DNA from: a virus
Strand: one strand, 5' to 3'
Length of the DNA stretch: 29,181 bases
IMG/VR virus record: IMGVR_UViG_3300017788_000122
Coordinates: 1-29,181 of that record
Position numbers and translations under genes: made by a program. This document shows, piece by piece, positions 3,621 to 27,609 of this stretch (positions are counted from its first letter, which is position 1; every line of letters starts with the position of its first letter). Below the pieces are notes generated by a model. That model searched no databases and had not been told where the DNA came from. It saw nothing but the letters and a program-made list of their open reading frames with translations.

Positions 3621-5426
3621 ATGGCAACTAGTTGGTTAGACCTACAAGAGAAATTAAGATCTGGTGAAGCATTTTTTCCTAAACCCACACCAGGAAAGTG
3701 TGGTACGGGAACTCGAACCGCAGACACTAATGTAAACCTTGGACTGCCAGCTTTAGATGGTATTGCTGGAGAAGTAAATGGTGTTCTTGGTGATGTACAG
3801 GGAGTCATCGACCAATTCGGTTCGGAAGTAATGGGTGTGCTTCAAGATATTGGAGCTTGGATTCCTTCCGATTTATTATCTGGTGGTAGTAGTTCAGAAG
3901 AAGCTCAGCAAGCAGCAAAGATAGCAGACGTTACTAAACAAAACACACAAACAATTGAAGGTGGAAACATTGCAACCACCACGGGTCACAACGAACAAAC
4001 AGGACAGTCATTTTATCAGATCAAGATGAGTTCTGGAACTGGAATGGCATTTGATACTGATGGTTCTATTCGTTTCAATGCTGCTGCTGATCCACCTGAT
4101 AGTCCTATTGCTGGTGATTTTGAGATCACACGGTGCAATAGTTTTTTGGCAAACATAGAAGAATGTTGTATCATAACTGTCAATAATAAAAATAATATTT
4201 GTGGCGGCAAAGATTCTGCAATCAAAAAATCATTAATGATTCTTGTCAATGGTGGTGACGTTGATTTAGAAGTGACTGGTGGAGATGTCAAAGTAAAATC
4301 CTCAGGTAACATATCTTTAGATGCTGGCAAAACATTAGAACTGAGAGGTGCAGATATTAGATTGTTTGCTGGTGGTGGTGCAGCTGACTCAAAGAAAGCA
4401 GGACAAGCAGCGGGTGAACAATATGGTGGCATGATTGATTTGAGATGTGCCACATATAGAAACAGTGCTACTACAAAACAAACTATAGAATCTGCAAAGT
4501 ATAGCACAGTCAAAGGCGAGTTGACAATTGCCATGGAGGATCCAATGGCACGATTCAATATCGTATCAGCTGGTCATTTCATGGTAGATGTTTCTGGTGA
4601 TATCTTAGAGGAAAGTAGAACTAAGGCAACGATTGTTGGTAGAATTCCTAAGGTAGGAATTCCAGCGTTACCTATAGTAGGCAATTTACTTAGCCAAAAC
4701 GCACAATATACTGTTGTCAATGATCGTCCTAATATACCAGAACCAGCAGCAGGATCCACGGAATCTCCTGTTTCTCAACCAATGATGCAAATTGTTAATA
4801 GTGCAAGTGCTCAAGGAGGACTTAAAGTTAATTTAATGCGAGGAGATATTATCTTTAGTACAAAACAAGGTAATCTCATCATGGGCAATGAAAAATCATT
4901 GATTGCGGATATTACCAAACCAAGTACAGATGTTTCATTGTCTCCAGCAATTGTCAAAGGTGCTAAAATTCCAGGCATGTATGTTGGATCTGATGCATCT
5001 CCTTTCCTTGCATTATACAACGCTTCTTCTACTTACATGACTGCGGGTAAATTCACTCCAGGTCCAACACCGAGCGTAAATTCAGTGGTTGTTACTCCAG
5101 CATCAGTTAATCTTACTGCTTCAGCAATGACAAATAAAGTTATAGGTGCTATGGTCAATAATTTGAAAGGAGCAGTAACAACGGATATTGCTGGCACAAA
5201 TACTCTCAATATTAAAGGTGCAAAAATTGAGAATATTACAGGTGCTAAACTTGCTAATGTTACGGGTCTTATTACTGACAAATCACCTACTGGTGTGGTT
5301 ATAGATAGTCCAGGAACAATCACAATTAAATCACAGGGAGCAATGAATATTACTGCTGGTGGTGCGATGACAATCAATGCAAGCGGTAATTTAACTATGA
5401 CTGCTTCGGCAATTCTTCTTAACTAA
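3621..5426 (+). CDS. Tail spike/needle protein with gp5C-like beta-helix repeats
   Basis: This 601-residue protein has a GAGGAAAG ribosome-binding site a few bases before the ATG. The N-terminal 100 residues are mixed. From about residue 200 it becomes a repetitive beta structure (VDLEVTGGDVKVKSSGNISL, LELRGADIRLFAG). The end (about 565-601) consists of octads: GAMNITAG, GAMTINAS, GNLTMTAS. Octapeptide repeats with a leading Gly are typical of the triple-stranded beta-helix of T4 gp5 and VgrG proteins, which pierces the outer membrane. A cysteine group lies at residues 172, 182, 183 and 194. The gene directly follows the OB-fold gene, so the two together may replace a single gp5. Trimerisation and membrane puncture are inferred from the family. 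Confidence 0.65.
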   Translation: MATSWLDLQEKLRSGEAFFPKPTPGKCGTGTRTADTNVNLGLPALDGIAGEVNGVLGDVQGVIDQFGSEVMGVLQDIGAWIPSDLLSGGSSSEEAQQAAKIADVTKQNTQTIEGGNIATTTGHNEQTGQSFYQIKMSSGTGMAFDTDGSIRFNAAADPPDSPIAGDFEITRCNSFLANIEECCIITVNNKNNICGGKDSAIKKSLMILVNGGDVDLEVTGGDVKVKSSGNISLDAGKTLELRGADIRLFAGGGAADSKKAGQAAGEQYGGMIDLRCATYRNSATTKQTIESAKYSTVKGELTIAMEDPMARFNIVSAGHFMVDVSGDILEESRTKATIVGRIPKVGIPALPIVGNLLSQNAQYTVVNDRPNIPEPAAGSTESPVSQPMMQIVNSASAQGGLKVNLMRGDIIFSTKQGNLIMGNEKSLIADITKPSTDVSLSPAIVKGAKIPGMYVGSDASPFLALYNASSTYMTAGKFTPGPTPSVNSVVVTPASVNLTASAMTNKVIGAMVNNLKGAVTTDIAGTNTLNIKGAKIENITGAKLANVTGLITDKSPTGVVIDSPGTITIKSQGAMNITAGGAMTINASGNLTMTASAILLN

Positions 5427-5443
5427 TAGGTGATTTCAAAATT

Positions 5444-5465
5444 GACCTTTAAATACCAAAAGGTC
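5444..5465 (+). other. Hairpin after the spike gene
   Basis: GACCTTT (5444-5450) and AAAGGTC (5459-5465) form a perfect 7-bp stem with an 8-base loop, 18 bases after the spike stop codon. On the + strand it is followed by GCAAAAAAAA instead of a T-run, so it is not a canonical intrinsic terminator. It could be an RNA 3'-end stabiliser or a weak terminator for the late baseplate transcript. Confidence 0.4.
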
Positions 5466-5507
5466 GCAAAAAAAATCTCGGCAAATTTTTGGTCAAAAAA
5501 GTCGAGC

Positions 5508-5536
5508 TTGACAGAACCCCTATATACCTGTACAAT
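5508..5536 (+). promoter_or_regulatory. Host-type sigma70 promoter for the tRNA/cpeT cassette
   Basis: TTGACA (5508-5513), a 17-base spacer and TACAAT (5531-5536) differ from the sigma70 consensus by one base. Upstream lie A/T tracts at 5468-5475, 5483-5490 and 5495-5500, which could act as an UP-like or curved element. The next gene starts at 5567, giving a leader of about 24 bases if transcription starts about 7 bases after the -10. Such promoters are used by host RNA polymerase for early phage genes, so this cassette is probably expressed early, unlike its late neighbours. Confidence 0.85.
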
Positions 5537-5566
5537 AGCAATGTGGCGCTTTGAGATCTGTGTCTT

Positions 5567-5755
5567 ATGAATCTTAAAAATCTTTCTGAGCAAGCTCTTG
5601 ACAAAATCTCCATAGACCTCTATAATAAGAAGGTAATCATCAGAGGCGAACATGGAACCACTCTCACCTTTAGATGTGCTACAATTAATGAGTTAGTTGA
5701 GTTAGTTGACAAGTGTAAAAAACTTCTTAAAACTGATATAGTTATTTGTCGATAA
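5567..5755 (+). CDS. Small hypothetical protein (62 aa)
   Basis: I do not recognise this 62-residue protein. It starts with a short helix (NLSEQALDKISI), has a central beta hairpin (KKVIIRGEHGTTLTF) and ends with a leucine/lysine-rich helix (INELVELVDKCKKLLKT). It contains three cysteines and no membrane segment or signal peptide. It is the first gene after the strong promoter at 5508 and ends 7 bases before the tRNA that follows, so it lies on the same transcript. The ribosome-binding site is weak. A real gene is likely because it fills the gap between promoter and tRNA in the direction of transcription. The function is unknown. Confidence 0.6.
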   Translation: MNLKNLSEQALDKISIDLYNKKVIIRGEHGTTLTFRCATINELVELVDKCKKLLKTDIVICR

Positions 5756-5762
5756 CTTTTTT

Positions 5763-5835
5763 GGGAGTGTAGCCCAGCGGAAGAGGCAAACGACTTAAAA
5801 TCGTTCAAGGGTGGGTTCGAATCCCACCACTCCTA
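5763..5835 (+). tRNA. tRNA with anticodon UAA (Leu by codon, short variable arm)
   Basis: A full cloverleaf can be drawn. The acceptor arms GGGAGTG (5763-5769) and CACTCCT (5828-5834) form 7 bp including one G-T. The D arm starts GCCC and has a C-A mismatch at its inner pair. The anticodon stem is AACGA/TCGTT with loop CTTAAAA (5794-5800), giving anticodon TAA at 5796-5798, which reads UUA (Leu). The variable loop is only CAAGG, and the T arm is GTGGG-TTCGAAT-CCCAC. The discriminator is A5835, and CCA is not encoded. Bacterial tRNA-Leu normally has a long class II variable arm, so the short arm is odd; the anticodon is nevertheless clear. Confidence 0.9.
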
Positions 5836-5860
5836 TTCCACTAAATATATTGTAGTGGAA
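5836..5860 (+). promoter_or_regulatory. Hairpin between tRNA and the 88-aa gene, covering its ribosome-binding site
   Basis: TTCCACTA (5836-5843) and TAGTGGAA (5853-5860) form a perfect 8-bp inverted repeat with a 9-base loop. It begins at the base after the tRNA discriminator. Its right arm contains GGAA, the only Shine-Dalgarno-like sequence before the ATG at 5866. It may guide tRNA 3' processing, limit translation of the next gene, or both. The loop region also includes TAAATA (5842-5847), the core of the T4-type late promoter, without the full TATAAATA. Confidence 0.5.
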
Positions 5861-5865
5861 ATGTT

Positions 5866-6132
5866 ATGAAATACACACTCTCTCAAGCATATGTTTTCTA
5901 TATGGGTGAGGTTGTTCGTATGTATTTCATTCAAGATCTACCCTATACGTTTGATGAACTTCCTCAACTTATACAAGATCATCCCTCAGTTCAAACAGAA
6001 GCATTAAGTCATCGTGATTACGATGATGAAGAGATGTTTAAAATTTCTAATTATCTTATAATGGAAGAAATGCATCCGCTTATGTTTGAAATAGAAATTG
6101 AAAATCCAGAATTATTGCCAAAAGATGATTGA
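5866..6132 (+). CDS. Hypothetical protein (88 aa) upstream of cpeT
   Basis: This is an unrecognised acidic protein of 88 residues. It begins with an aromatic helical segment (SQAYVFYMGEVVRMYF) and ends with an acidic stretch (FEIEIENPELLPKDD). No signal peptide, cysteine or catalytic motif is visible. It overlaps the cpeT start by 8 bases (6125-6132), so the two are probably translationally coupled. Its own ribosome-binding site lies in the stem of the hairpin at 5836-5860. Its position next to cpeT makes a joint role possible, but nothing in the sequence proves one. Confidence 0.6.
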   Translation: MKYTLSQAYVFYMGEVVRMYFIQDLPYTFDELPQLIQDHPSVQTEALSHRDYDDEEMFKISNYLIMEEMHPLMFEIEIENPELLPKDD

Positions 6133-6595
6133 AGAATTTTTTCGTTATTTTGAAGGCACTTTTAATAATTGTATGCAAGCAATGTCGCACCCTACTAAGT
6201 TTGCGATGATTGAACTAATTCATGAAAAACTTGATGGCAACCGCTTTCACTGCATTCAGCAGTATTATGTTGACAAGATTCCATATCGGAATACAATCAT
6301 CGAAGTAGTTTCGCATGGTTCTCATCTGATTCTCAAAAATTACAAAGATGAGGGATTGACATACTTGACTGGATGCGATATAATTATGGAGAAGCAGGGT
6401 TCTCAGTTTATCGGCAAAAATCTTTGTACTGAATGTTTTGTAAAATGGCGTGATAAACAAACCCGTCTTCATACAACCAGTGTTCTTGGTGATGATTACT
6501 ATCATGTAATTGATCAAGGATACGATGTAAATACCGACGAACAAATTTGGGGATCTTATCATGGTCCTTTTCAGTTCGTCAAATTGCCTGAGTAG
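6125..6595 (+). CDS. cpeT: CpeT-type phycobiliprotein chromophore lyase (auxiliary metabolic gene)
   Basis: The 156-residue protein starting at 6125 has the CpcT/CpeT lyase pattern: N-terminal EEFFRYFEGTFNN, a central QQYYVDKIPYRNTI, GCD at residues 83-85, GKNLCTECFVKWR at about 97-109, and C-terminal DQGYDVNTDEQIWGS...GPFQF at about 130-151. CpeT enzymes are calycin-like barrels that bind phycoerythrobilin and attach it to a cysteine of phycoerythrin beta. Cyanophage versions are known; at least one binds bilin without the full host activity. An in-frame ATG at 6098 would add nine residues, but 6125 fits the family's start and gives an ATGATTGA overlap with the preceding gene. The stop codon (6593-6595) lies within the tRNA-Thr gene. 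It would act in the host cytoplasm on light-harvesting pigments. Confidence 0.9.
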   Translation: MIEEFFRYFEGTFNNCMQAMSHPTKFAMIELIHEKLDGNRFHCIQQYYVDKIPYRNTIIEVVSHGSHLILKNYKDEGLTYLTGCDIIMEKQGSQFIGKNLCTECFVKWRDKQTRLHTTSVLGDDYYHVIDQGYDVNTDEQIWGSYHGPFQFVKLPE

Positions 6596-6659
6596 CTCAG
6601 CTGGATAGAGCAACGGTTTTGTAAACCGTAGGTCGTCGGTTCAAGTCCGACCTTGGGCT
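6586..6659 (+). tRNA. tRNA-Thr(UGU)
   Basis: The cloverleaf is complete. The acceptor GCCTGAG (6586-6592) pairs with CTTGGGC (6652-6658) using two G-T pairs. The D arm is GCTC...GAGC. The anticodon stem is ACGGT/ACCGT with loop TTTGTAA, giving anticodon TGT at 6620-6622, which reads ACA. The variable loop is AGGTC and the T arm is GTCGG-TTCAAGT-CCGAC. The discriminator would be T6659, which is unusual because bacterial tRNA-Thr usually has A, and CCA is not encoded. The first ten bases overlap the end of cpeT, so the tRNA must be cut from the cpeT messenger. Confidence 0.93.
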
Positions 6660-6680
6660 TCCGTGTGAAGGAAGACGCAA

Positions 6681-6707
6681 AAGCCTGGAGACCCCTCCAG
6701 GTTTTTT
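6681..6707 (+). terminator. Intrinsic terminator closing the tRNA/cpeT cassette
   Basis: CCTGGAG (6684-6690), loop ACCC, CTCCAGG (6695-6701) and then six T (6702-6707) form a textbook rho-independent terminator. The A-run before the stem can pair with the T-run. It lies 21 bases after the tRNA-Thr and ends just before the late promoter, so it would separate early cassette transcription from the tail-fibre operon. Confidence 0.92.
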
Positions 6708-6709
6708 CT

Positions 6710-6717
6710 TATAAATA
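6710..6717 (+). promoter_or_regulatory. T4-type late promoter for the tail-fibre operon
   Basis: The exact octamer TATAAATA, the late promoter element recognised by the T4 gp55 sigma factor with the sliding clamp, lies 37 bases before the ATG of the giant fibre gene and directly after the terminator. It would start late transcription of the genes from 6755 onward. Confidence 0.8.
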
Positions 6718-6754
6718 ACTCAGAAGAAATCACCATAGTACGGGTAACTGAGTA

Positions 6755-9700
6755 ATGCCATTAACGAGATTAGATAATCTACTTTCAAGTAAAACTGGTA
6801 AGTATCTTTATGTTTCTCCTGACGACTTTAATGCGACAGACGCTTTAGATAATAGAGGAAATTCACCAACCAGACCATTTTTATCAATTCAGCGTGCGTT
6901 TCTTGAAGTAGCAAGATTCTCGTATCTACCTGGGATTGATAATGATCGTTTTGATCAATTTACGATCATGCTGTCTCCTGGTGTACACCATATTGATAAT
7001 AGACCAGGCACAGACAACGTAGATGATCTTCCTGTATTCCAGTATAATCAGGCACTTGGCGAGTGGGAAACAAATAGTAATGTAAGTTTTAATCTTAGCG
7101 ATCCTAATAATATTCTTTATAAGTTCAATGGTCGTGATGGTGGTGCTACTATTCCAAGAGGTACATCTCTTGTAGGTATGGATTTGCGTAGAACTCAGCT
7201 ACGCCCACTATATGTACCCGATCCTGCAGATAAAGATGTTTCTCGTTGTGCTCTATTCAACGTAACTGGTGGTTGCTATTTCTGGCAATTTACCATTCAA
7301 GATGGTGACCTTTCTTCTAATTCACCTTTATATGATGCAACTGTTGGTCTCGGTAAAGTTTACACACAACCAAATGATACTGTTACTAAATTAGTACCAG
7401 AATTTTCTCACCATAAGATCACAAACTTTGTATTTGCCGATAGACAAGATCTTGGTCTTCTTTACAGAAAAATTTCGCATGTTTTTAGTGATTATCAACC
7501 ACCGATTGATGATGTATTTGTAGAAGGAGAAACTCAAGCAATTACACAATATTGGTCTTCGACTGTCAATTATTCTGCTGGTGATAAAGTTCTTTATAAC
7601 GGTCAAGCGTATCAGGCGGCTGCAAGTTCTATCAATACCAGACCAAATACGAATCCAGCAAAATGGTCCTTGATGGTCATTCGCAGCAGAGAGTTTGATT
7701 TTAGAGTACAGGAAAACAGAATTGTTGGACCTCTGCAAGATGCTATTCGTCTTGATGAAGTAAGAGTTGACGATTCAGTACCTGCTGGTATTACTACTCT
7801 TACTGTTCGCACAAAAATTAATCATGGATTTTTTCCTGGTCAGTATGTTGCTATTACTAATAACGGTCTGAATGATACACTGAATGGTGTATTCCAAGTA
7901 GCAAGTATTAGTGCAACTGATCCAAAAGTATTTACTTATCGTGTTCCTGCTACAGCGACTGGATTGGGTCTTGTAAGCGGCACTACTTACACTGCAGCAT
8001 CTTCACCTCCTCTCGATACTAACGCCACCGTACAAGCGGAGGTAGATAGCGTAGAATCGGCATCTCCATATGTCTTCAACGTTTCGATTAGATCCACCTG
8101 GGGTATTTGTGGTATTTGGGCAGATGGTAAGAAAGCCAGTGGTTTCAAATCAATGGTTATCGCTCAGTACACGGGTGTTTCGCTACAGAAAGACGATAGA
8201 GCGTTTATTCGCTACGACGAGTTTAGTAACACATGGAACCAGGCACCATTAACTGATGCGTTCGCAACCACTCCTTACCACATCAAAGGTGATGCATATT
8301 GGAAGGATGATTGGAGAAACTTCCACGTTAAGGCATCTGATGATTCCTTCATTCAGTGTGTTTCGATCTTCGCTGTTGGTTTTGCTGATCACTTCCTAAT
8401 GGAAAGTGGTGGTGACATGTCGATCACCAACTCTAACTCCAACTTTGGTAATACTTCTCTACATGCGATTGGTTTCAAGGGATTTGCATTCAACCAAGAC
8501 AAGGGTGGATATGTCACTGATATTATCCCGCCAAAATCTCTTTCTACTTTAAATGTAACCAGAAAACAGTATTACACTTTTGATGTTCCCCTTGTTAGGG
8601 GAACTTCATTAAATCCAAACTCAACAAGATTGTATCTTGGAACTGAAGATGCTCGTAATCCAGAAGATCGCCCAGCAGCTTCTATTGATGGATTTAGATT
8701 GGGCGCAAAAAGAAACGAAAAAATCTTTGTGAAATTAGATGCTTCTGGTGCTAAATCTGCAGATCTTATTCACTCTGGTTTCAAAAAGTGGACTGCTTCA
8801 CTCTCCACTTTGAACCCAACTGGTGTAGGATTTACCACGGAGTTTAATCTGAAGCAAGATGCTGCTAACTTGATTGATGCTAACAAGACATTCATTCAAG
8901 CAGAGGCATTTGGATATATTCTTGATAAATATCCAAATCTTCAGAATATTCCTTATGTCAATCCAAACATCACTTCCGAAACGGGTAGATATAGAGATGC
9001 TTCAACATTAATCAAAGCAAACAGACAAGAAATCATTGATTATGCATTCTCGCAGATGCAAACTGCGTTCCCTGCATTTGTTGTTCCTGGTGGTGGGAAT
9101 GCAAATGAAAAATGTAAGCGTGATATTGGATACATTGTAGATGCTATTGCTAATGACTTGTATAGTGGTGGCAACTCCAATATGGTTGATGCGACTAAAT
9201 CATATTTTAATGCTTCGGGTCAACCAATCAGCAATGGACTTGCTGGTGAAGAAACTCAATCTATTTTTGCTTTTAATCGAGCAAAAGATTGGTGCAAAAA
9301 AGCAATTTCAAACTTACTAACAAGCACTTCATTGCTTGATAGCCCAGCATTGTCTGCTTCTGGTACTACTGTTACAGTAACTACTGCAACTCCGCATAAT
9401 TTGCAGGCAAATGATTTTGTAACAGTTGGTGGTGCTACGCAAACAGCATTTAATGGTAAGTATCAAGTTCTTTCTGCTGGATTAACATCAACACAATTCA
9501 GATATACTGTTCCTGCTGCTCCTTCTGTGGCAAATGCAACAGGCGCAGTATACGTTTCCACAATTACTATTGATCCAGTAAATGATGATGCAAACGTGGG
9601 TAGGTTCAAAGATGCAAGCAGATTGATTACTAATAATAGACAAGAAATTATTGATAGAGCAGCAGCAGAAATTGCTGTACAACACCCAGATTTTTACTAT

Positions 9701-12700
9701 CCTGGTGACCCACAAACTACATCAACATCAAGATACAAAGATGCATATCGTTTAATTCACCAAAATAAGCAAGAAATTATTGACGGTGCTTATGCTCAGA
9801 TAGCAATTGATTATCCATCTTTTACAAATCCAAATGAAACCAAGTGCAAAAGAGATATTGAATTCTTTATTGACGCAGTTTCTCTTGATATTGTGCAAGG
9901 CGGTGGTAATGTATATTCTCGTAAGTTTGTTCAGCAATATTTTGTAAATGCAACTACTCCATTACCTAATGGATTGCTTGGTGAAGAAGGTCCATCCGTT
10001 TCTGCGTTTACAAAAGCTCGTAATTTAATGAAGTCGGCTCTTGCGAACCAACTTACAATCAAGGATCTTACTGTTACTGCTGGTCCAGCAAACTATAACG
10101 GTACTGGTGGAAATATCGCAAATACAAATCCAGGATCCTGTGCTGACGTTCAACTTGCGATTGACAACCTATCATTCTTAATTACTTCAGTAATTAGTGC
10201 AGGAAATCTTACTGGACTTCCAAATGAATCTGTTGGATCATCTCCTGCTGGAGAAACAAAGTGCAAAAGAGATATTGGTTATATTGTTGATTCGATTGCT
10301 CAAGATATTTTCTGGGGTGGTAATGAGTTTACTGTTGGCGCAGTAAGAGAATATTTCACTCAAGCAGGAACACCACTGGTAAATGGTCTTGTTGACGAAA
10401 CTGTAGAATCTGTTACTGCATTCAACAAAGCAAGAGAGTGGTGTAAGAGAGCTGTTACCAATCAGTTATACACAAAGAATCTAAATTTATCTGTTGGTCC
10501 TGCTGTTGCTGGTGGATCTGGAGGAAATATTTCTTATACTCAATCTGGTAATGGAGCAACATGTACTGATGTTCAGTCCACAGTAGATTCACTCTTCTCT
10601 ATTGTAACTACTGTTGTTAGTGCTGGTAGTATTACATCTCTTCCTGCAGTGGATAATGGTGATTGGGATTGTGCTAATGTGCGTCAAACTATTGATACTT
10701 TAGCAAATATTATCAATAGTTCTCTACTTGCTGGTAATCTTAATAATTTGCCAGTGAGAAATGTTGGTCCTTGGTCTCAAGTAAGCGATGCAAGCAAGTG
10801 TAAGCGTGACATTGGATATATTGTGGAAGCAATTACTTCTGATTTAAGATTGGGAGGAAATGTCAATACAATTAATGCCGCTGAGGCATATTATGTTGGC
10901 ACGCAATTAGATTATATTGAAAACGAAAAACTCGAAACTCTTGATGCATATCGATATGTGAGAGATTTGGCGATTTCTGCAATGAGAAATCACAATACTT
11001 ACATTCCTAATGCATCGACAACTAATGGATCTTCGATTGTAACAGTACCAAGCACAGTTGGTCTTGCAATAGGAATGAAAGTTCGCAGTGTTGTCGCAAT
11101 TCCAGTAAATGCTCAAAGTACAGTTACATATACTGCAACTATTCCAACTACAGCATATATCAAAAAAATTGGCGATGGTGTAAACGGTCTCGCAACGAAT
11201 CAAGTTCAACTTGGTACTCAAGGAAGCAAGTTTGATATTGGTTCGAATGTTAATGCTACTACTACCTCTACTGGTGTTAATTTATATGTTGAATTGACTC
11301 AGGGAGTTTGGAGTACTGCATTAGCTCCATCTACAGATTCAAGTGTAATTCAAGATTATAACTATCTTACTCCTGGTGATATTGCAACTGGCGCTCCTGG
11401 TGGTGAGTGTGCAAGCGTAGCAAGCACTTTGGTTAATTTTTATCAAATTCTTTCCACTATTATTAACAGTGGGGTTGGAACGGTTCCTAGAGTTGCTTCA
11501 ACTCTGAATACTGGTGGTCTTGCTCAGAGAGCAACATTGTTCTCTCTTACTGAATATGATAGCACTGGTGTTCCAACAACTAACCCACACCAACTGGAAA
11601 CAGGAACTCCTATTCGTCTTGTTCCAAGAGCAAAAGCAGGAATTACCGTTGATAAGAGAGTAGTTCGTCTTCCAAAAGGTTTTGATACAAATACCGTATA
11701 TTATGTAATTGCTCCTGGTAGAAAAACTGATCCATACGATTATTCTAGTATCGGATCATTTAATGGCACTAATCAACAAAATTTATTGCTTGCAACCAGC
11801 TCAGAAAATGCTGCAGCAGGTATTTACATCTATTCTTCAGAAACAGATGGTATCGACCCTGGTGTTGAAATTGATGTATATCAATATGTTTTAGATATTA
11901 ATTATGATCTACATCAATATCAAACTAAAATTGCATCTGGATCTGCTATAATTCTTGAGACAGATAGACCTCATGTATTTGACAAACCAGCAACTAATAT
12001 CACTCCACAGTTAGTATTCTTCCGCCCAGGATCTGATATTGTAGGATCATCTCTTCCTACATTATCTTCTACATTTGGTGGTGGTACGATTTCTGGTAAA
12101 AATCTTTACTTTGTGCGCTATGTAAGTAGCACAAGATTTACAATTCACGAGACATCTGCAAATGCTCGTGATAACATCAATCCAATTTCATTCCAACCAG
12201 GCAGCACTGCAGTATTCTACACATTTGCAGATAAGCGTAGATCTCCACTAAGATATGATCCTAAGATTGGTACTTCACCTACTGATGGATGCTGGTATCT
12301 GGAAACTCTATCTGCTAGCAACACTATCATTCCTAGAATGAAGCAGTCAGATTATGCTGGTAGATTGAGAACAACTGATTCTTTCTTTGAAAGAATTGAA
12401 GACAGCAGAACAAAAGAAGATAGAATTTATCGTTTGCGTTATGTAGTACCCAAGAATCTTAAGACAGTTCGTGATCCTATTAGAGGATTTGTACTCAAAG
12501 TTCGTACAGACGAGAAGAGAAGATTACTACCACAGAAGATTCTTCTCAAGCCAACTTCAACTGGTGCAGACACAGCAACTCTGCTTGCTCCTGTAAGCGG
12601 TGAGCGCCTTGGACTAACTCTACAAGAGCAACTTACTCTCAATCCAAACTTCTCTTCTACATACGATCCATCACCTTTTGGTAATCCAAAGAGATTGGAG

Positions 12701-15700
12701 ACAAATGCGAAAGTAGCGTTTACTGTTCAATCTGCTAGAAAAGTTTCTTTAAGTGGTAAAAATTATTTACAATTGAATGTTTTTGATGTTGGCATTGATG
12801 CAGAAGCTTATAAAACTAAAATTTTTACTACAGTTAAAGTTTCTTCACCTGAAGGTGGAAATGGATCTTTTGTAGCAAGCGTACCAAATTCAAACAATAC
12901 TAATAAGATTACATGGTCTGGTAATTCTTCTGGTACTGCATATGTTCATGGATATTTTGCATATGCAAACGAATACTACATGATTCTGAAAGATTTTACT
13001 GGTAATTCTTTTATTGATTATAATTCAGTTACACCAACTGTCTTCACCCAGGGATCTGTAACTGCAACATTACTTGATGAACCTAATAGCGGTAGATCTG
13101 ATATCACCAAGTATCCATATGTTGTTGAAGGCGCAAATGTTTATACGTTAACTCCTGGTGATAGAGTAAATGATGATAATGGTGTTTCTTATACGATTGC
13201 AAAAGTAGAAGATGTTCCAGATATTGAAAATACTTTCTACATCTTTGATATTAATACAATTCGCAGAAGAATTCCTGGTCAGCAAGATGGTATTTACTAT
13301 CTAACTTGTATTCGTGGTGATATCAGCCCATATCCTACTGGTTCTGGTGTTGGTACAAACTTTAGAAACTTTAAGTTCTCTCAACCAGTTTCTAAATTAT
13401 ACCCAGAGTTCTATAAGAACGATCCAGAATGGTATAAGGGAGTTGATTTAACAACCACAACTCTATCTGATCCACCTCCTACAGTATCTACTGCTGACAA
13501 TTACATTCATGGTCTTGTTACGGTTAATGACTCCAAGAATAGTTTAACAAAAGAATTGGTTCTTGATTTCATTAAAGATCCTGGTACTGGTGGATATACA
13601 TTTGCTGGGAATAGTGCAATTACAGCACAATCTGGCACAGCATCTGCTGGATCAGAAAGTAGAAAAATTTCCATCAGTGGTAACTCACCATATCCAACAG
13701 AAGGAAAACTTTATGTAGAACTTCGTAGACCATCGATTGCTCGTGCAGGTAACCATACATTTGAATATCTTGGTTTTGGTCCTGGTAACTACTCAACTGG
13801 TCTTCCTGCACGCCAAGAAATTGTTCTTACTGATGTACAGGATTTCTATGCTCAAGCTAAGAGACAAGATGCTGGTATTGTATTCTATACTGGTCTAAAC
13901 TCCAATGGTGATCTTTATATTGGTAATCGTAAGATCAACGCAATTACTGGTGAAGAAACATTCTTAGAATCTGCAAAACTTGTAGAATCTTCGGATGAAG
14001 TGGATGTAATTGGTGGTCTTGTTACTACATTTGATACTGCAGTAACGTTCAACGAAATTATTACAGTAAATGGATCAGAAGGAAAGGCAGAAAGCTTCTT
14101 CAATGCTCCAGTTGTAATCAATAACACAACAGCATTTGGATCTGTAGAAAACTTCCCATCATTGAGAATTGTCACTGGAGAAGGAACTGCTATAGGTTAT
14201 GATCCATATCTGGAAGTCAATGTTTCGCAACAAAAAACGGGAGATGTTATCCTTCATCAAGGCAGAATTCAAACTACAGTAGTTGATCTTAATCCAAGAG
14301 GATTACAAGATTATCAGATTATGACGGCGTTATCAAACAGAACGCCAGATCTTGCAAATACTTTTGGTATTACAACTAATGGTCCCACACAACTACAGAA
14401 TACTGACTTAGGAACCAAATTCCCTCTTGCATCTGGATTGATGCAACTGAAAGGAAATCAAACACTCTTTACTGGTTCTCTTGGGTGGATTTATGCTAAT
14501 GATTATGTTCGTATTGAAAATCGTTCGGGTGGTGGTTTTAATGCCCAAGTTATTGGTATTCAGGGTGCAGCTACAGGCACATTGGTTCGTTTAACGTGGA
14601 ATGTTGGTATTACTAATACAGCACTACAAATTACATCATCATCACAAATTCGTATTACGGGTGCAACTGGTTCTCTTGCTCCCATTAATGGCGTTTGGCC
14701 TGTTTATAGTACAGTTGGATCTCCATTTGTTCCTACTGCTAATTTTGTAACTATTATTGTTAATAATAATTTACCTCAATATACTGCAATTCCACTTCCT
14801 AACAATGGATATCCAGTTGACGCTGTAGCGCAACCAAATATTGTAATTGAGAAATCAAAAGCCGCATTCAAAGAATTTGGTGTTCTTGGTTCTGAATCTA
14901 TTAGAACAGAAACAGAAACAATTGGTGATTATAAAGTTGGTGTTAACACAGTTGCTCGTTCTGCACATTCTGCATATCAAACTGCATTTGTTGACGCTTC
15001 AACAACTCCAAGAGCAAACCTTGACGTTGTTGGTAATACCTTTATTAGTGGTAAAAAGATTCTTTCTTATCTCACTGAAACTGGTACTACAAAAACAGAA
15101 ACAAATCAAGATGCTGCTTTCTTAGTTGGTGGAGATAGTGCAAATCCACTCACTAATGCAGCAACTTTAAGAGTTGCAACTACAAACAGCGGTAGAGTTG
15201 GTATTAATGTCAACAATGCTAATCTTGATAGAACACTAGTGGTTGGTGGTAATGGTAGAATTACTGGTGATTTCAAATTTGAATCTGATATTGAAGTAAA
15301 TGGTGGTGATATTACAACCACTAATGCAGTATTCAATATTGCAAATCAATCAAATGCTCTAACATTCTCTGCTGGTGCTTTTGCAACTACAGCAAATCTA
15401 TTTAATAGTGCAACTGCTTCACAAACAATTAATATCGGCACTGCAGTAACAGCAGATGGAACTTTAAATATTCACACAAATGTTTATAATTCTACTGTAA
15501 ATCTTGCAATAACTGATGACATAATTGATCCTACTACACCATCCTTTGCACCTTCTTCGTTAATTACATTAGGTGGTGCATATATTAATCAGTCACAAAG
15601 TATTTTTAGAGTTAAAAACTATCAAACAGTACTTGATGGTACTTTAGAAATCAGAGGCGATAGAATGTTTGCGACGACACCAACTGGTGTTTTCACAATG

Positions 15701-17944
15701 TTCCCAACAAACTTATCTGCAATTAGAATTGCTCCTACTGCAGGATCAGTTGAGATTGGTGGCGTTGCTGGCACAACTACTCTTAGAAATGGTCTGAGAG
15801 TTAATAATACTGCTATTTTTGAAAGTGATATAGTTCAAAATGGTGGATTTAGAAATGCTGGTGTTGGAGTTTCCAGAAATGTATTTGGAACAATTCGAAT
15901 TGCTTCTATTTCTCGAACAGGAACTACAGCTACAATTACTACTACTGCTGCACATGGATTAACAAGTTCACAACAAATAGAAATTGCATGTAGCAATGAA
16001 ACTTTCAGTAGTATCGGTTCAGTAATAATTACTGTTACTTCACCAACAACATTTACCTATACGACAGTTTCGAGTGGGAATGTTGCTACAGTTGCAGCAA
16101 CAGGAACTGTCATAGTGCCTAATATTGGCAGAACACACGCACAAGGTAGTTTAGCAAATCTAAATGTAGATTATTATGCTTCAATACCAAATTTTGCCGC
16201 TATTTTGGATATTGGTGCTTTAGTTGGTATAACAACTCCAGTAAATTCTACTAAAATTTTAGTATCTAATAATTATCTTGTTCCTGGCAATGCGGTTAGA
16301 TTTGTTGCTTTGGGTAATATTACTGGTGTTTCGACATCAACAATTTACTATGTTGTTGAATCTGATTCTGCTGGATTTACTATTTCAACAACTTCTGGAG
16401 GAAATCCGATAGTTGTTAATTTAGCTGGCGGTGCCACTGGTCCAGGCGCAGCGAAGATTACACTTGATAAAACGTCTATTGATAATCCAGGAAGTTCTTT
16501 CCTCAGTGCTACGCAAACCACGATTCCTATTAATAGTTCAAGTAACTTCGGTATTAATGAATTTTATCTTATTGGTGGAGTTGAGATTGTAAAAACAACA
16601 AATCTTCCTTCACTAACATATCCATTTACAGTTGAAGTTGTAAGAGGACAAGAAGGAACTGCAGCAGTTGCTCATGGAGATAATGCAACCATTGTTAAAT
16701 TAGGAAGAACTGAAAATGCATCATACATTTTCCCAAATGCAATTGATGGAACTACAACAACTGTAAATCTTGCCGAATTTAGTGGCACGTTTGCTCAGGG
16801 CGATTTCTTGAGAATTGATAAAGGAACCAGTGCAGAAGAATATGTCAGAGTAACAGTTATTAATGAATCTGATGCACAATCATTCTCTATTAATAATGGT
16901 TCCACTTCAAACAAAATTACAACTTTCAATGTTGTAACTACTTCTGGTAATACTGATATTCTTGGTGATGTAACAATTGGTTTTGATAATGGAACTACAT
17001 CTAGCACATCTAGCTTGTCTGGTACTACCGTTGTTACTGGTGGAGGAAATCTTAAAGTACATAATTCTATTGAATTAAGTGGCAATTCTTCTACTGCATT
17101 GCCAGAAAAACAATATTTTGTTATTACAAATGGTTCAGCTCCTAAGTTATATGTAGAAACTGCAACAGGAAACACCAAACTTTACACTGGAGCAAATCTA
17201 CAAATTTTCAAAGATTCTTTCTTCTCTTCTGGAGTATTTGATAAAACGAGAATTGACACTGCTTCTGATATTGCGTTTGAAGTTCTTGGTGCTTCTGGAA
17301 ATACCAGAATTGCTGGCACTTTAAATGTTGGTAATGACTTTACTGTTGAAAATAATCTTGGCGGCACTGATACATTTACTGTTGATGCACAAACAGGTGA
17401 TACTTATGTCGGTAGACATCTAACAATTAATGGTGCCTCAAGCGCAACTCCTGCGCCTGGAGTTGTAACTCTTGCTGTAAATGGTATTGGCGTGAGTGGC
17501 AACAAACCATTTAGAATTAAGCAAGATGCATCAATTAATGCTTTTGGTAGAAATAATTTCTACAATAAGAATGGTGGCAGAAGAACCATTATGATTAATG
17601 ACACAGGAGGAACAGTTACACAAGCACTTGAACCAAATACACAATACCTAGTAAGACCAACGAGTAATTTAATTCTCAATCTACCTGCAACAGCAGAAAC
17701 TGGAGATATTATTAGATTCGTTGATGTTCAGGGGTCGCTAAATTATAATGTTTCTCTGCAAGTAAGAGCTCCTATTTCGGTGGCAGTACAAGGATCTACA
17801 GCAGGATCTGGTGGATATGCTGGTGGTGAGTTAATTGTTAATACACCAAACGCTGGATTTGCTCTAATCTATGTTGGTCTTGAAGATTCTGATGGAAATG
17901 GTGTAACGGATACAAATCGAGGTTGGTGGTTGGTGGAGGTATAA
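6755..17944 (+). CDS. Giant tail-fibre/virion structural protein (3729 aa)
   Basis: One uninterrupted frame encodes 3729 residues, roughly 400 kDa. Residues about 17-130 resemble the start of a pectate-lyase-like beta-helix (KYLYVSPDDFNATD, then PTRPFLSIQRAFLE). Residues about 743-1590 hold repeated modules. R-[YF]-[RK]-D-A-x2-L-I-x2-N-[RK]-Q-E-I-I-D occurs at 745, 950 and 993. CKRDI helices occur at 787, 1031, 1170 and 1349. C-x-[DNS]-V motifs occur at 1129, 1270, 1306 and 1552. A small 'HGL-type' beta module occurs at about 343-409, 866-935 and 3048-3121. The last 1200 residues are Thr/Asn/Gly-rich beta repeats (LDVVGNTFISG, FEVLGASGNTRIAG), typical of fibres, ending in NRGWWLVEV. No enzyme motif is seen. 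It follows a late promoter and precedes collar-domain fibres, so a long tail-fibre or baseplate-attached fibre is most likely. Confidence 0.8.
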   Translation: MPLTRLDNLLSSKTGKYLYVSPDDFNATDALDNRGNSPTRPFLSIQRAFLEVARFSYLPGIDNDRFDQFTIMLSPGVHHIDNRPGTDNVDDLPVFQYNQALGEWETNSNVSFNLSDPNNILYKFNGRDGGATIPRGTSLVGMDLRRTQLRPLYVPDPADKDVSRCALFNVTGGCYFWQFTIQDGDLSSNSPLYDATVGLGKVYTQPNDTVTKLVPEFSHHKITNFVFADRQDLGLLYRKISHVFSDYQPPIDDVFVEGETQAITQYWSSTVNYSAGDKVLYNGQAYQAAASSINTRPNTNPAKWSLMVIRSREFDFRVQENRIVGPLQDAIRLDEVRVDDSVPAGITTLTVRTKINHGFFPGQYVAITNNGLNDTLNGVFQVASISATDPKVFTYRVPATATGLGLVSGTTYTAASSPPLDTNATVQAEVDSVESASPYVFNVSIRSTWGICGIWADGKKASGFKSMVIAQYTGVSLQKDDRAFIRYDEFSNTWNQAPLTDAFATTPYHIKGDAYWKDDWRNFHVKASDDSFIQCVSIFAVGFADHFLMESGGDMSITNSNSNFGNTSLHAIGFKGFAFNQDKGGYVTDIIPPKSLSTLNVTRKQYYTFDVPLVRGTSLNPNSTRLYLGTEDARNPEDRPAASIDGFRLGAKRNEKIFVKLDASGAKSADLIHSGFKKWTASLSTLNPTGVGFTTEFNLKQDAANLIDANKTFIQAEAFGYILDKYPNLQNIPYVNPNITSETGRYRDASTLIKANRQEIIDYAFSQMQTAFPAFVVPGGGNANEKCKRDIGYIVDAIANDLYSGGNSNMVDATKSYFNASGQPISNGLAGEETQSIFAFNRAKDWCKKAISNLLTSTSLLDSPALSASGTTVTVTTATPHNLQANDFVTVGGATQTAFNGKYQVLSAGLTSTQFRYTVPAAPSVANATGAVYVSTITIDPVNDDANVGRFKDASRLITNNRQEIIDRAAAEIAVQHPDFYYPGDPQTTSTSRYKDAYRLIHQNKQEIIDGAYAQIAIDYPSFTNPNETKCKRDIEFFIDAVSLDIVQGGGNVYSRKFVQQYFVNATTPLPNGLLGEEGPSVSAFTKARNLMKSALANQLTIKDLTVTAGPANYNGTGGNIANTNPGSCADVQLAIDNLSFLITSVISAGNLTGLPNESVGSSPAGETKCKRDIGYIVDSIAQDIFWGGNEFTVGAVREYFTQAGTPLVNGLVDETVESVTAFNKAREWCKRAVTNQLYTKNLNLSVGPAVAGGSGGNISYTQSGNGATCTDVQSTVDSLFSIVTTVVSAGSITSLPAVDNGDWDCANVRQTIDTLANIINSSLLAGNLNNLPVRNVGPWSQVSDASKCKRDIGYIVEAITSDLRLGGNVNTINAAEAYYVGTQLDYIENEKLETLDAYRYVRDLAISAMRNHNTYIPNASTTNGSSIVTVPSTVGLAIGMKVRSVVAIPVNAQSTVTYTATIPTTAYIKKIGDGVNGLATNQVQLGTQGSKFDIGSNVNATTTSTGVNLYVELTQGVWSTALAPSTDSSVIQDYNYLTPGDIATGAPGGECASVASTLVNFYQILSTIINSGVGTVPRVASTLNTGGLAQRATLFSLTEYDSTGVPTTNPHQLETGTPIRLVPRAKAGITVDKRVVRLPKGFDTNTVYYVIAPGRKTDPYDYSSIGSFNGTNQQNLLLATSSENAAAGIYIYSSETDGIDPGVEIDVYQYVLDINYDLHQYQTKIASGSAIILETDRPHVFDKPATNITPQLVFFRPGSDIVGSSLPTLSSTFGGGTISGKNLYFVRYVSSTRFTIHETSANARDNINPISFQPGSTAVFYTFADKRRSPLRYDPKIGTSPTDGCWYLETLSASNTIIPRMKQSDYAGRLRTTDSFFERIEDSRTKEDRIYRLRYVVPKNLKTVRDPIRGFVLKVRTDEKRRLLPQKILLKPTSTGADTATLLAPVSGERLGLTLQEQLTLNPNFSSTYDPSPFGNPKRLETNAKVAFTVQSARKVSLSGKNYLQLNVFDVGIDAEAYKTKIFTTVKVSSPEGGNGSFVASVPNSNNTNKITWSGNSSGTAYVHGYFAYANEYYMILKDFTGNSFIDYNSVTPTVFTQGSVTATLLDEPNSGRSDITKYPYVVEGANVYTLTPGDRVNDDNGVSYTIAKVEDVPDIENTFYIFDINTIRRRIPGQQDGIYYLTCIRGDISPYPTGSGVGTNFRNFKFSQPVSKLYPEFYKNDPEWYKGVDLTTTTLSDPPPTVSTADNYIHGLVTVNDSKNSLTKELVLDFIKDPGTGGYTFAGNSAITAQSGTASAGSESRKISISGNSPYPTEGKLYVELRRPSIARAGNHTFEYLGFGPGNYSTGLPARQEIVLTDVQDFYAQAKRQDAGIVFYTGLNSNGDLYIGNRKINAITGEETFLESAKLVESSDEVDVIGGLVTTFDTAVTFNEIITVNGSEGKAESFFNAPVVINNTTAFGSVENFPSLRIVTGEGTAIGYDPYLEVNVSQQKTGDVILHQGRIQTTVVDLNPRGLQDYQIMTALSNRTPDLANTFGITTNGPTQLQNTDLGTKFPLASGLMQLKGNQTLFTGSLGWIYANDYVRIENRSGGGFNAQVIGIQGAATGTLVRLTWNVGITNTALQITSSSQIRITGATGSLAPINGVWPVYSTVGSPFVPTANFVTIIVNNNLPQYTAIPLPNNGYPVDAVAQPNIVIEKSKAAFKEFGVLGSESIRTETETIGDYKVGVNTVARSAHSAYQTAFVDASTTPRANLDVVGNTFISGKKILSYLTETGTTKTETNQDAAFLVGGDSANPLTNAATLRVATTNSGRVGINVNNANLDRTLVVGGNGRITGDFKFESDIEVNGGDITTTNAVFNIANQSNALTFSAGAFATTANLFNSATASQTINIGTAVTADGTLNIHTNVYNSTVNLAITDDIIDPTTPSFAPSSLITLGGAYINQSQSIFRVKNYQTVLDGTLEIRGDRMFATTPTGVFTMFPTNLSAIRIAPTAGSVEIGGVAGTTTLRNGLRVNNTAIFESDIVQNGGFRNAGVGVSRNVFGTIRIASISRTGTTATITTTAAHGLTSSQQIEIACSNETFSSIGSVIITVTSPTTFTYTTVSSGNVATVAATGTVIVPNIGRTHAQGSLANLNVDYYASIPNFAAILDIGALVGITTPVNSTKILVSNNYLVPGNAVRFVALGNITGVSTSTIYYVVESDSAGFTISTTSGGNPIVVNLAGGATGPGAAKITLDKTSIDNPGSSFLSATQTTIPINSSSNFGINEFYLIGGVEIVKTTNLPSLTYPFTVEVVRGQEGTAAVAHGDNATIVKLGRTENASYIFPNAIDGTTTTVNLAEFSGTFAQGDFLRIDKGTSAEEYVRVTVINESDAQSFSINNGSTSNKITTFNVVTTSGNTDILGDVTIGFDNGTTSSTSSLSGTTVVTGGGNLKVHNSIELSGNSSTALPEKQYFVITNGSAPKLYVETATGNTKLYTGANLQIFKDSFFSSGVFDKTRIDTASDIAFEVLGASGNTRIAGTLNVGNDFTVENNLGGTDTFTVDAQTGDTYVGRHLTINGASSATPAPGVVTLAVNGIGVSGNKPFRIKQDASINAFGRNNFYNKNGGRRTIMINDTGGTVTQALEPNTQYLVRPTSNLILNLPATAETGDIIRFVDVQGSLNYNVSLQVRAPISVAVQGSTAGSGGYAGGELIVNTPNAGFALIYVGLEDSDGNGVTDTNRGWWLVEV
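8981..11460 (+). repeat. Internal cysteine-helix repeat region of the giant fibre
   Basis: Within the giant protein, residues about 743-1570 contain diverged tandem modules. The fullest unit runs R-Y-x-D-A...QEIID, then CKRDIGYIVDAI, then GGN, then Y-F, then PLVNGL-type loops, then AFNKARxWCK, then a C-x-DVQ helix with AGNLTGLP. Copies differ in length because sub-blocks are missing or doubled. The repeats are visible at protein level and are well diverged at DNA level, which argues against recent duplication. Confidence 0.8.
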
Positions 17945-26229: not shown

Positions 26230-26589
26230 ATGAAAAGAGAAAATATTGTAGTTATACAAGATTCTGCCGCAGCATTTGCTAAAATGAGCGGAAAATCAGT
26301 TGCGAGAATCAAAGCTATTGGACCAATGAATTGCCAAGATCCAGAAAAAATAGAAAAAATTTGGCAATTTTATGATGGTAAAATACCCGATTCTGTATAT
26401 GATACCCTCAGAAGTTTTGGAGAGGTATTTTGTTTTTTTGACACACCAAATGAGGCGATTACAAATCTTGAACATTGGTTTCCATCCTTACAACTAATTG
26501 ATGATGATGAATATGATGAGCTTGACAGAGATTACTATATTGCGGTAGAATCTGCAGATCCCACAGGTATTTGGTTATACGGAACTTAA
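26230..26589 (+). CDS. Hypothetical protein downstream of the fibre chaperone (119 aa)
   Basis: I do not recognise this 119-residue protein. Residues 1-30 are Ala/Lys-rich (VVIQDSAAAFAKMSGKSVAR). The rest is acidic and aromatic, with VYDTLRSFGEVFCFFDTP, LEHWFPS, a D/E-rich turn (IDDDEYDELDRDYY) and a hydrophobic end (PTGIWLYGT). No catalytic motif is evident. It starts four bases after the previous stop and ends one base before the next ATG, so it belongs to the same operon as the tail-fibre genes. A role in fibre assembly or as a minor virion protein is only suggested by context. Confidence 0.6.
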   Translation: MKRENIVVIQDSAAAFAKMSGKSVARIKAIGPMNCQDPEKIEKIWQFYDGKIPDSVYDTLRSFGEVFCFFDTPNEAITNLEHWFPSLQLIDDDEYDELDRDYYIAVESADPTGIWLYGT

Positions 26590-26590
26590 G

Positions 26591-27583
26591 ATGAATGATT
26601 TTGAATTTACGTCATTAGAAATTGCGAAAATTTTATCACAATTCAACACCAAAAACGTTAAGTTGGTATTTGAAAATCCATCTGACGTAAACTCAGTGTT
26701 TAATGAAATTTTTCCAATTTTTACACAAGCAGTGGGAAGATTTCATAAGAATAAAAATTATAACAGTAAGGGTTATGAACTTAGTTGTGACCGAATGAAA
26801 GTCACTGCTATGGGATATGGTTATCAATATGCAAATTTACAATTAATATCAGATAAAGATCATAATCAAAATGTACAATCAGTACATGATTTGTTTCCAT
26901 ATTTTTCTTATTTTAGAAAATTACCCGTGGTAGATATTAATGGTATTTTTGGAGTAGATTTATCAGTTGATGAGAAATATTTGCATGGTTATTATTACAG
27001 TATAGTTCCGTATTTTTTGAATGAAGTACCAGAAGAACAGAAATCTGAATGCTTGAATGATATGAAATTATCTCATTCTTGGAGAGATTACATTTTATCT
27101 TATGCAACTCAAGATCAAGCGGTTTATGCCAGTTATGCTGGATTTGATAGTAAAAAGATTTTATGCAAATTGGGGTTTTCTGTAATGATCAAAGATTTTA
27201 TTACCAAAAAATTATCAACATATCATAAGTTTGATAACTTAATTAATTTTTTGACAAACGAAACGCAGTTTTATAACCAAGATTACGAAGAGTGTGGTCT
27301 ACAATTGCCATCAGTAGCCTCTTCTGTATATGAAAATGAATATCTTGGTGTGGAATTAGTGCCGTTTCCTTACGAAAATGGCAGAAGTAGAGAAGAATAT
27401 TTAAATTTTCTCGATCAATATTTTTCAAAAATGATTGAGTATAAGTTAATTACTGAAGAACAAAAATATTTCATATTGAATGACGAAACTACTCAGAGAA
27501 ATAAGGATGGAATTTTAAAATTTAGATGGAAAGATAGCAAAACTTATGGAGTGAAATGGTATAACATTGAAAAAAGGGCTTGA
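26591..27583 (+). CDS. Hypothetical protein at the end of the tail operon (330 aa)
   Basis: This 330-residue protein is not recognised. It is rich in Tyr, Phe and Asn with no membrane segment. Notable stretches are FPIFTQAVGRFHKNKNY (about 41-57), VMIKDFITKKLSTYHKFDNL (about 197-216), and a helical C-terminal part with REEYLNFLDQYFSKMIEYKL (about 271-290). The ATG follows the previous stop after one base. The last codons overlap the -35 element of the next promoter, so it closes this transcription unit. It may be a tail component or accessory factor; no function can be assigned from sequence alone. Confidence 0.6.
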   Translation: MNDFEFTSLEIAKILSQFNTKNVKLVFENPSDVNSVFNEIFPIFTQAVGRFHKNKNYNSKGYELSCDRMKVTAMGYGYQYANLQLISDKDHNQNVQSVHDLFPYFSYFRKLPVVDINGIFGVDLSVDEKYLHGYYYSIVPYFLNEVPEEQKSECLNDMKLSHSWRDYILSYATQDQAVYASYAGFDSKKILCKLGFSVMIKDFITKKLSTYHKFDNLINFLTNETQFYNQDYEECGLQLPSVASSVYENEYLGVELVPFPYENGRSREEYLNFLDQYFSKMIEYKLITEEQKYFILNDETTQRNKDGILKFRWKDSKTYGVKWYNIEKRA

Positions 27584-27609
27584 CAGGGGGTTGACACCCG
27601 TGCTATAGT
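27580..27609 (+). promoter_or_regulatory. Sigma70-type promoter opening the small-gene block
   Basis: TTGACA (27580-27585), an 18-base spacer and TATAGT (27604-27609) form a near-consensus promoter whose -35 overlaps the TGA of the preceding gene (27581-27583). A second TTGACA at 27591-27596 is only 7 bases from the -10 and cannot serve as its -35. The first start codon is at 27634, with AGGA at 27625-27628. Confidence 0.82.

Follow-up and report, generated by a model that had tools for sequence, protein, structure and literature searches.

T4-type phages reportedly carry mobile regulatory cassettes, which Arbiol and colleagues are said to have described in 2010 under the name PeSL and in which an early promoter and a stem-loop are placed between genes, as units that recur at several junctions. 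In lambdoid phages, morons as defined by Nolan et al. (2006, PMC1524935) possess their own promoter and terminator and are expressed apart from the surrounding late operon. Cyanomyoviruses lack alt and mod genes and are thought to use the unmodified host sigma-70 polymerase early and T4-type late promoters, NATAAATA, late (PMC2984593). Sullivan et al. (2010, PMC3037559) named a hot spot of cyanomyoviruses, "near gp5 with tRNAs" (transfer RNAs), which is enriched in Synechococcus phages, and recorded cpeT in 12 of 16 genomes. Here we describe a 1.3-kb gap in the IMG/VR virus record IMGVR_UViG_3300017788_000122, a T4-like cyanophage whose complete 29,181 bases are hereafter called the window. 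The gap separates a second gp5-like hub gene from a very long fibre gene and contains, in this order, a sigma-70 promoter (P1), orf62, tRNA-Leu, the GC730 open reading frame (ORF), cpeT, tRNA-Thr, a terminator and the late promoter TATAAATA. It lies at the same genomic place as the hot spot, to which it belongs by its tRNAs and variable small genes beside gp5-type genes. We consider it likely that the gap is an accessory slot of long standing and that it holds a host-polymerase sigma-70 module whose predicted intragenic promoters feed the overlapping tRNAs downstream.

A preliminary description of this DNA had named a near-consensus sigma-70 promoter, two tRNAs, two unknown small genes, cpeT, a terminator and a late promoter, and each of these parts was found where it had been placed. 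P1 fits the consensus at 11/12 positions, ARAGORN and Rfam both recovered tRNA-Leu(UAA) and tRNA-Thr(UGU), and the small genes are orf62 and a phrog_4134 ORF. The product of cpeT scored 82 bits against PF06206, for which the gathering score is 21, and by sequence it is lyase-like and belongs to the same family as the phage CpeT lyase of P-HM1 (PDB 5hi8) and the host CpcT (4o4o). What the preliminary description missed is that two perfect sigma-70 sites sit within orf62 (P2) and cpeT (P3). Its single-promoter unit is therefore not what we found, since the gap contains three strong promoters, two of them inside genes, and a fourth site, at 6270, that is poorly conserved. Relatives of the gap were taken from 80 IMG/VR loci and 12 annotated phage regions, and cpeT-centred loci were added later.

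P3 is encoded at the peptide Leu-Thr-(4 residues)-Cys-Asp of CpeT. The Leu codon is TTG in all 75 phage genes that carry this peptide (16.5% elsewhere in the same genes), and when a single gene was kept per cluster it was TTG in 16/16 genes at 60% identity and in 11/11 at 50%. The Thr codon is ACA in 63 of the 75 genes (background 32%), the Asp codon is GAT in all 75 (background 72%) and the −10 hexamer has the form TAnnnT in 72. Some of these loci had been retrieved partly via the P3 peptide; as degenerate codons were used for retrieval, the TTG result is not built in. Of 97 genes, 56 carry a site scoring 11/12 or better, compared to 5.5 predicted by resampling of synonymous codons. Conservation of TTG-ACA for a reason other than transcription, namely codon-specific translation pausing, mRNA structure or a Leu-Thr constraint in the protein, could be invoked given that the protein, too, conserves the Leu and Asp residues and that the motif lies near conserved residues. 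We regard it as unlikely. It is the sub-elements of a single promoter, at a fixed distance from each other, that are constrained, whereas the codons for conserved Gly and Cys residues between the hexamers vary. In cpeT of the hosts (34 cyanobacterial loci, 28 with a readable motif), this Leu is encoded by any of the six codons and is followed mostly by Glu, not Thr, and no promoter site of at least 10/12 was found in any of the 34 host genes. In addition, three lineages that lost the P3 motif (L068, L076 and L081) carry a different 12/12 site nearer the tRNA. The cpeT genes of P-HM1 and ACG-2014f, which unlike that of the window have no tRNA behind them, contain no intragenic promoter; in Table 1 of Sullivan et al. 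(PMC3037559), P-HM1 is listed with 0 tRNAs. P3 is thus conserved at the DNA level, base by base, across very different phages, and apparently serves to switch on the tRNA gene overlapping the 3′ end of cpeT, with a predicted leader of ~195 nucleotides (nt).

The other sites of the gap were also compared with chance levels. P1 has an invariant TTGACA and a constant 17-nt spacing in the alignment of closer relatives, with a spacer of variable sequence. P2 is retained as an exact TTGACA/TATAAT pair in 23 of 30 orf62 homologues; where its first residue is Leu, the codon is CTT in 24/25 (background 23%), and Asp is encoded by GAC in 25/26 (background 56%). Both perfect TTGACA/TATAAT pairs (spacing 15-19) present in the window on either strand fall in the gap. 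Four sites with TTGACA and a −10 hexamer of at least 5/6 lie in the cassette, versus 0.016 expected per copy under first-order Markov resampling (2000 copies, with a maximum of 1 site). Across the 61 dereplicated loci used for counting promoters, terminators and late promoters, the density per kb of sites scoring at least 11/12 is 0.87 (+) and 0.04 (−) within the gap, compared to 0.14 on the + strand and 0.06 on the − strand of the sequence upstream; in the fibre gene it is 0.02. The site at 6270 was rejected as a conserved internal promoter, since apart from the window it is present in L013 and L020 alone.

Coordinates of the features in and around the gap (positions in the window)
Feature	Position	Strand	Remarks
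Second gp5-like baseplate hub/spike protein, late, 5′ of the slot	3621-5426	+	phrog_4540, DUF2345/DUF3540; labelled 'baseplate hub and tail lysozyme' in relatives
P1, intergenic sigma-70 promoter	5508-5536	+	TTGACA-17-TACAAT; 11/12; −35 and spacing conserved
orf62, small protein, weak DUF7294	5567-5755	+	Pfam E 0.0021, below gathering; same-place homologue in 30 loci
P2, sigma-70 promoter inside orf62, 5′ of tRNA-Leu	5598-5626	+	TTGACA-17-TATAAT; 12/12
tRNA-Leu(UAA) of class-I size, lacking a long variable arm	5763-5835	+	ARAGORN (5762-5836); Rfam 58.5 bits
GC730/phrog_4134 small ORF	5866-6132	+	phrog_4134 E 8.9e-41; 8-nt overlap with cpeT start (ATGATTGA)
cpeT, auxiliary metabolic gene for a T-type phycobiliprotein lyase-like protein	6125-6595	+	PF06206 E 6.6e-23; phrog_488; profile matches to CpcT 4o4o and phage CpeT 5hi8
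Promoter-like site inside cpeT	6270-6297	+	TTGACA-16-TACAAT; little conserved
P3, sigma-70 promoter inside cpeT, ~195 nt 5′ of tRNA-Thr	6356-6384	+	TTGACA-17-TATAAT; 12/12
tRNA-Thr(UGU)	6586-6659	+	ARAGORN; Rfam 67 bits; positions 8-10 (TAG) are the cpeT stop codon
Short hairpin between tRNA-Thr and terminator	6658-6674	+	CTTCCGTGTGAAGGAAG; stem CTTCC/GGAAG, loop GTGTGAA; nearly invariant in relatives
Intrinsic terminator, hairpin 6679-6706 followed by U-run	6679-6708	+	−17.1 kcal/mol, z −5.7
T4-type late promoter of the fibre gene	6710-6717	+	TATAAATA; 2 bases past the U-tract
Very long short-tail-fibre-like protein, late, 3′ of the slot	6755-17944	+	labelled 'short tail fiber protein' in relatives

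The tRNA that follows cpeT forms the stop codon of this gene. Of 78 cpeT-like ORFs with a nearby tRNA, 68 overlap it; the overlap measures exactly 10 nt in 45 and, once the start given by ARAGORN is corrected, 10 nt in 8 more. For cpeT the joint occurs with tRNA-Thr, tRNA-Asp and tRNA-Val as partners, and other ORFs form the same joint where they precede tRNA-Ala, -Asn, -Leu and -Met. The cultured relatives S-CAM1, S-CAM4 and S-WAM2 share the joint. Another cpeT-like gene, a second paralogue with the motif CDKLEG (L059 5394, L063 1237 and L165 472), likewise ends ~10 nt inside tRNA-Leu. Since TAG at positions 8-10 is common in tRNAs and one frame in three stops there, such a joint arises readily, and the interest lies in its consequence rather than in its formation.

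At the distal end of the gap, folding and the alignment of relatives both identified the terminator hairpin on the + strand. A simple terminator scan had listed a hairpin on the − strand only, and missed that of the + strand because the stem apparently absorbs the T-run. All 6 consensus pairs of the stem show compensatory double changes, in an alignment that holds one misplaced row (L028), which weakens the terminator statistics. The hairpin is present in 30 of the 61 loci, and the detector gave no hit in 305 control segments taken from the fibre gene. The octamer TATAAATA occurs only once in the 29 kb on either strand, and in 60 of the 61 loci NATAAATA lies no more than 80 nt upstream of the start of the fibre gene. 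Because of these two counts, 60/61 for the late promoter and 30/61 for the hairpin, the late promoter is general and the terminator lineage-specific. Closure by a strong terminator, as claimed in the preliminary description, thus holds in the window but not as a general trait, whereas a late promoter just after the terminator was borne out. In L040, tRNA-Thr lies ~440 nt 5′ of the fibre gene, yet the CTTCCGTGTGAAGGAAG hairpin stays with the terminator.

As the slot sits in a late region and on the same strand as its neighbours, the gap could also be covered by one continuous late transcript from late promoters upstream, the sigma-70 sites being silent relics. This seems to us most improbable in view of the strong conservation of the sigma-70 sites and of the terminator with compensatory changes and dedicated late promoter that part the gap from the fibre gene.

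From these parts we propose the following mechanism. P1 would transcribe orf62, tRNA-Leu, the GC730 ORF, cpeT and tRNA-Thr as a long transcript up to the terminator, after which the late promoter would start the fibre gene afresh. P2 and P3, if they fire as predicted, would give shorter, tRNA-rich transcripts feeding the tRNA genes behind orf62 and cpeT, respectively. Because the cpeT stop codon lies in tRNA-Thr, one molecule would serve either as message or as tRNA precursor: cleavage by RNase P at the 5′ end of the tRNA would remove the stop codon from the long transcript, which could then yield CpeT or the tRNA-Thr precursor, but not both. We infer that RNase P would make CpeT and tRNA mutually exclusive on each transcript. 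A transcript from P3, lacking the cpeT start codon, would supply tRNA-Thr free of that conflict. As for timing, the module may be expressed early, which we infer from promoter type alone.

Several observations weigh against this mechanism, or against its generality. Among cpeT-like genes with an adjacent tRNA, 67 carry a site of at least 10/12 and 10 do not, compared to 6 with and 12 without a site among those that have no adjacent tRNA; the corresponding Fisher p of 1e-5 rests on raw counts that are not independent of descent, and a tree-based test of promoter versus tRNA yielded only 1-2 informative pairs, of which nearly all point the expected way. The 10 genes with a tRNA and no such site, and the 6 genes with a site and no adjacent tRNA (L010, L096, L157, L161, L170 and L171), stand as exceptions. 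The second cpeT-like paralogue has no intragenic promoter. Furthermore, the terminator is missing in half of the lineages, so that the module is not always closed, and the auxiliary metabolic genes of P-HM2 belong to the middle expression cluster, not the early one (PMC5082946). A strict rule that every tRNA-overlapping ORF carries a promoter was rejected on account of the second cpeT paralogue and Syn19.

Some of these observations also bear on a simpler explanation, in which the internal promoters merely raise the dose of downstream genes (tRNAs and, elsewhere, denV and the 2OG oxygenase) and the overlap reflects genome compaction with no regulatory role. The frequent TAG at positions 8-10, where an ORF entering a tRNA will often stop, and the six promoter-bearing cpeT genes without a tRNA directly behind them agree with this explanation. 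It fits less well with overlap being the rule for cpeT, and competition between translation and tRNA maturation on a shared transcript would be hard to avoid. We give dose alone a real, if somewhat less than even, chance. Beyond the proposed module, it is possible, though we advance it only tentatively and with considerable doubt, that cpeT and its tRNA constitute a nested either-or unit: the DNA of cpeT would serve as the tRNA promoter and the 5′ end of the tRNA as the cpeT stop, tRNA excision would destroy the message, and P3 would avoid this cost. Such a unit would swap partners (Thr, Asp and Val) and position with the joint kept, and the promoter constraint would have fixed a Leu-Thr pair that is mostly missing in hosts.

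The comparison of the same gap in relatives, which the preliminary description had called for, revealed a variable cargo, the content of the gap not being fixed. The core order is orf62, [tRNA-Met], tRNA-Leu(UAA), GC730, [cpeT], tRNA-Thr(UGU), [tRNA-Ala, tRNA-Asn, denV, 2OG-Fe(II) oxygenase] and fibre gene, with optional members in brackets. In the 53 loci whose upstream sequence exceeds 4 kb, tRNA-Leu is present in 46, GC730 in 48, tRNA-Thr in 48 and cpeT in 35. Three states were observed at the junction between GC730 and tRNA-Thr: an empty state, GATGATTAATGCC, in which GCC is the tRNA start; the cpeT state, with the ATGATTGA overlap; and an unrelated ORF starting MFWGKY (L039-L041). Mapped on the fibre-protein tree, the presence of cpeT is strongly clustered and requires at least 5 changes, 3 of which are forced by well-supported branches; its history therefore includes gain and loss but is mostly vertical. 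Since the core order is common to most cyanomyoviruses examined and the G+C content of the module (0.37) equals that of the whole record, it is cpeT and a few neighbours that are the cargo. The replaceable cpeT is an optional insert at the GC730/tRNA-Thr junction and would bring its own intragenic promoter along. The transferable cargo slot of the preliminary description is accordingly upheld in its variable content, with cpeT cleanly present or absent at one junction, but not as a one-off insert. In Syn9 and Syn19, cpeT sits 5′ of gp5, joined to tRNA-Val. Foreign origin was ruled out as a reading of base composition. On contig L183 (CAJXMP010000233.1), filed as a metagenome-assembled genome of an uncultured Lewinella, a phage-type cpeT is joined to tRNA-Thr and tRNA-Ala; this contig is probably misbinned cyanophage DNA.

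The module resembles PeSL in that an early promoter and a terminator hairpin bracket exchangeable genes in a hyperplastic region. It differs in that its promoter copies lie in coding sequence and vary around the hexamers. Within 5300-7000 of the window, the part compared, no repeated mobile promoter/stem-loop unit was found, nor any direct repeats that could act as mobile borders. With morons it shares, at the sequence level, a promoter of its own and, in 30 of the 61 loci, a terminator of its own; it differs in having a conserved multi-gene core with tRNAs and no deviating G+C, only cpeT being cleanly absent in some relatives, and the phage is not lambdoid. An ordinary moron-like insert, that is, a foreign metabolic cassette that recently came to lie between two late genes, complete with promoter and terminator, and in which the intragenic sites are AT-rich accidents, would account for a promoter, cargo and terminator between conserved late genes and for gain or loss of cpeT. 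Besides the shared core and matching G+C, however, the intragenic sites are kept at synonymous positions far above chance, and the TTG codon found in 75/75 genes already largely contradicts such an insert, which we hold to be distinctly improbable.

The slot as such is not new, since Sullivan et al. had already named the hot spot and it was known in outline. In the passages of that study consulted here, we found no description of the core order, the stop-in-tRNA overlap or the cargo junction. Predicted promoters had to be intergenic there, or to lie no further than 10 bp from either end of an ORF, a filter that would have hidden the intragenic sites. Intergenic-only filters may thus make cyanophage gene maps miss a conserved class of regulatory sites. 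The module would also tie a photosynthesis-related auxiliary gene to tRNA supply within one overlapping unit, and it offers a test case both for early expression of phage metabolic genes sited in late regions and for how a phage settles a conflict between message and tRNA on one stretch.

Other features were noted in the window. The tRNA-Leu(UAA) at 5763-5835 is of class-I size (~73 nt, with a short variable loop) and replaces the usual class-II tRNA-Leu of the slot; its pattern matches at least 120 IMG/VR stretches, indicating a widespread phage tRNA. An 8-bp hairpin (5836-5860; −8.5 kcal/mol, z −3.7) lies between this tRNA and the GC730 start codon. Directly 5′ of gp5, a gene for the Calvin-cycle inhibitor CP12 (760-978) marks a second cargo slot, the same place that is occupied by cpeT and tRNA-Val in Syn9 and Syn19. 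Finally, three more strong sigma-70-like sites were found at 26522, 27251 and 27580 (26522-27609 of the window), the last of which is just 5′ of a run of small ORFs from 27634 and probably marks the start of an early gene region.

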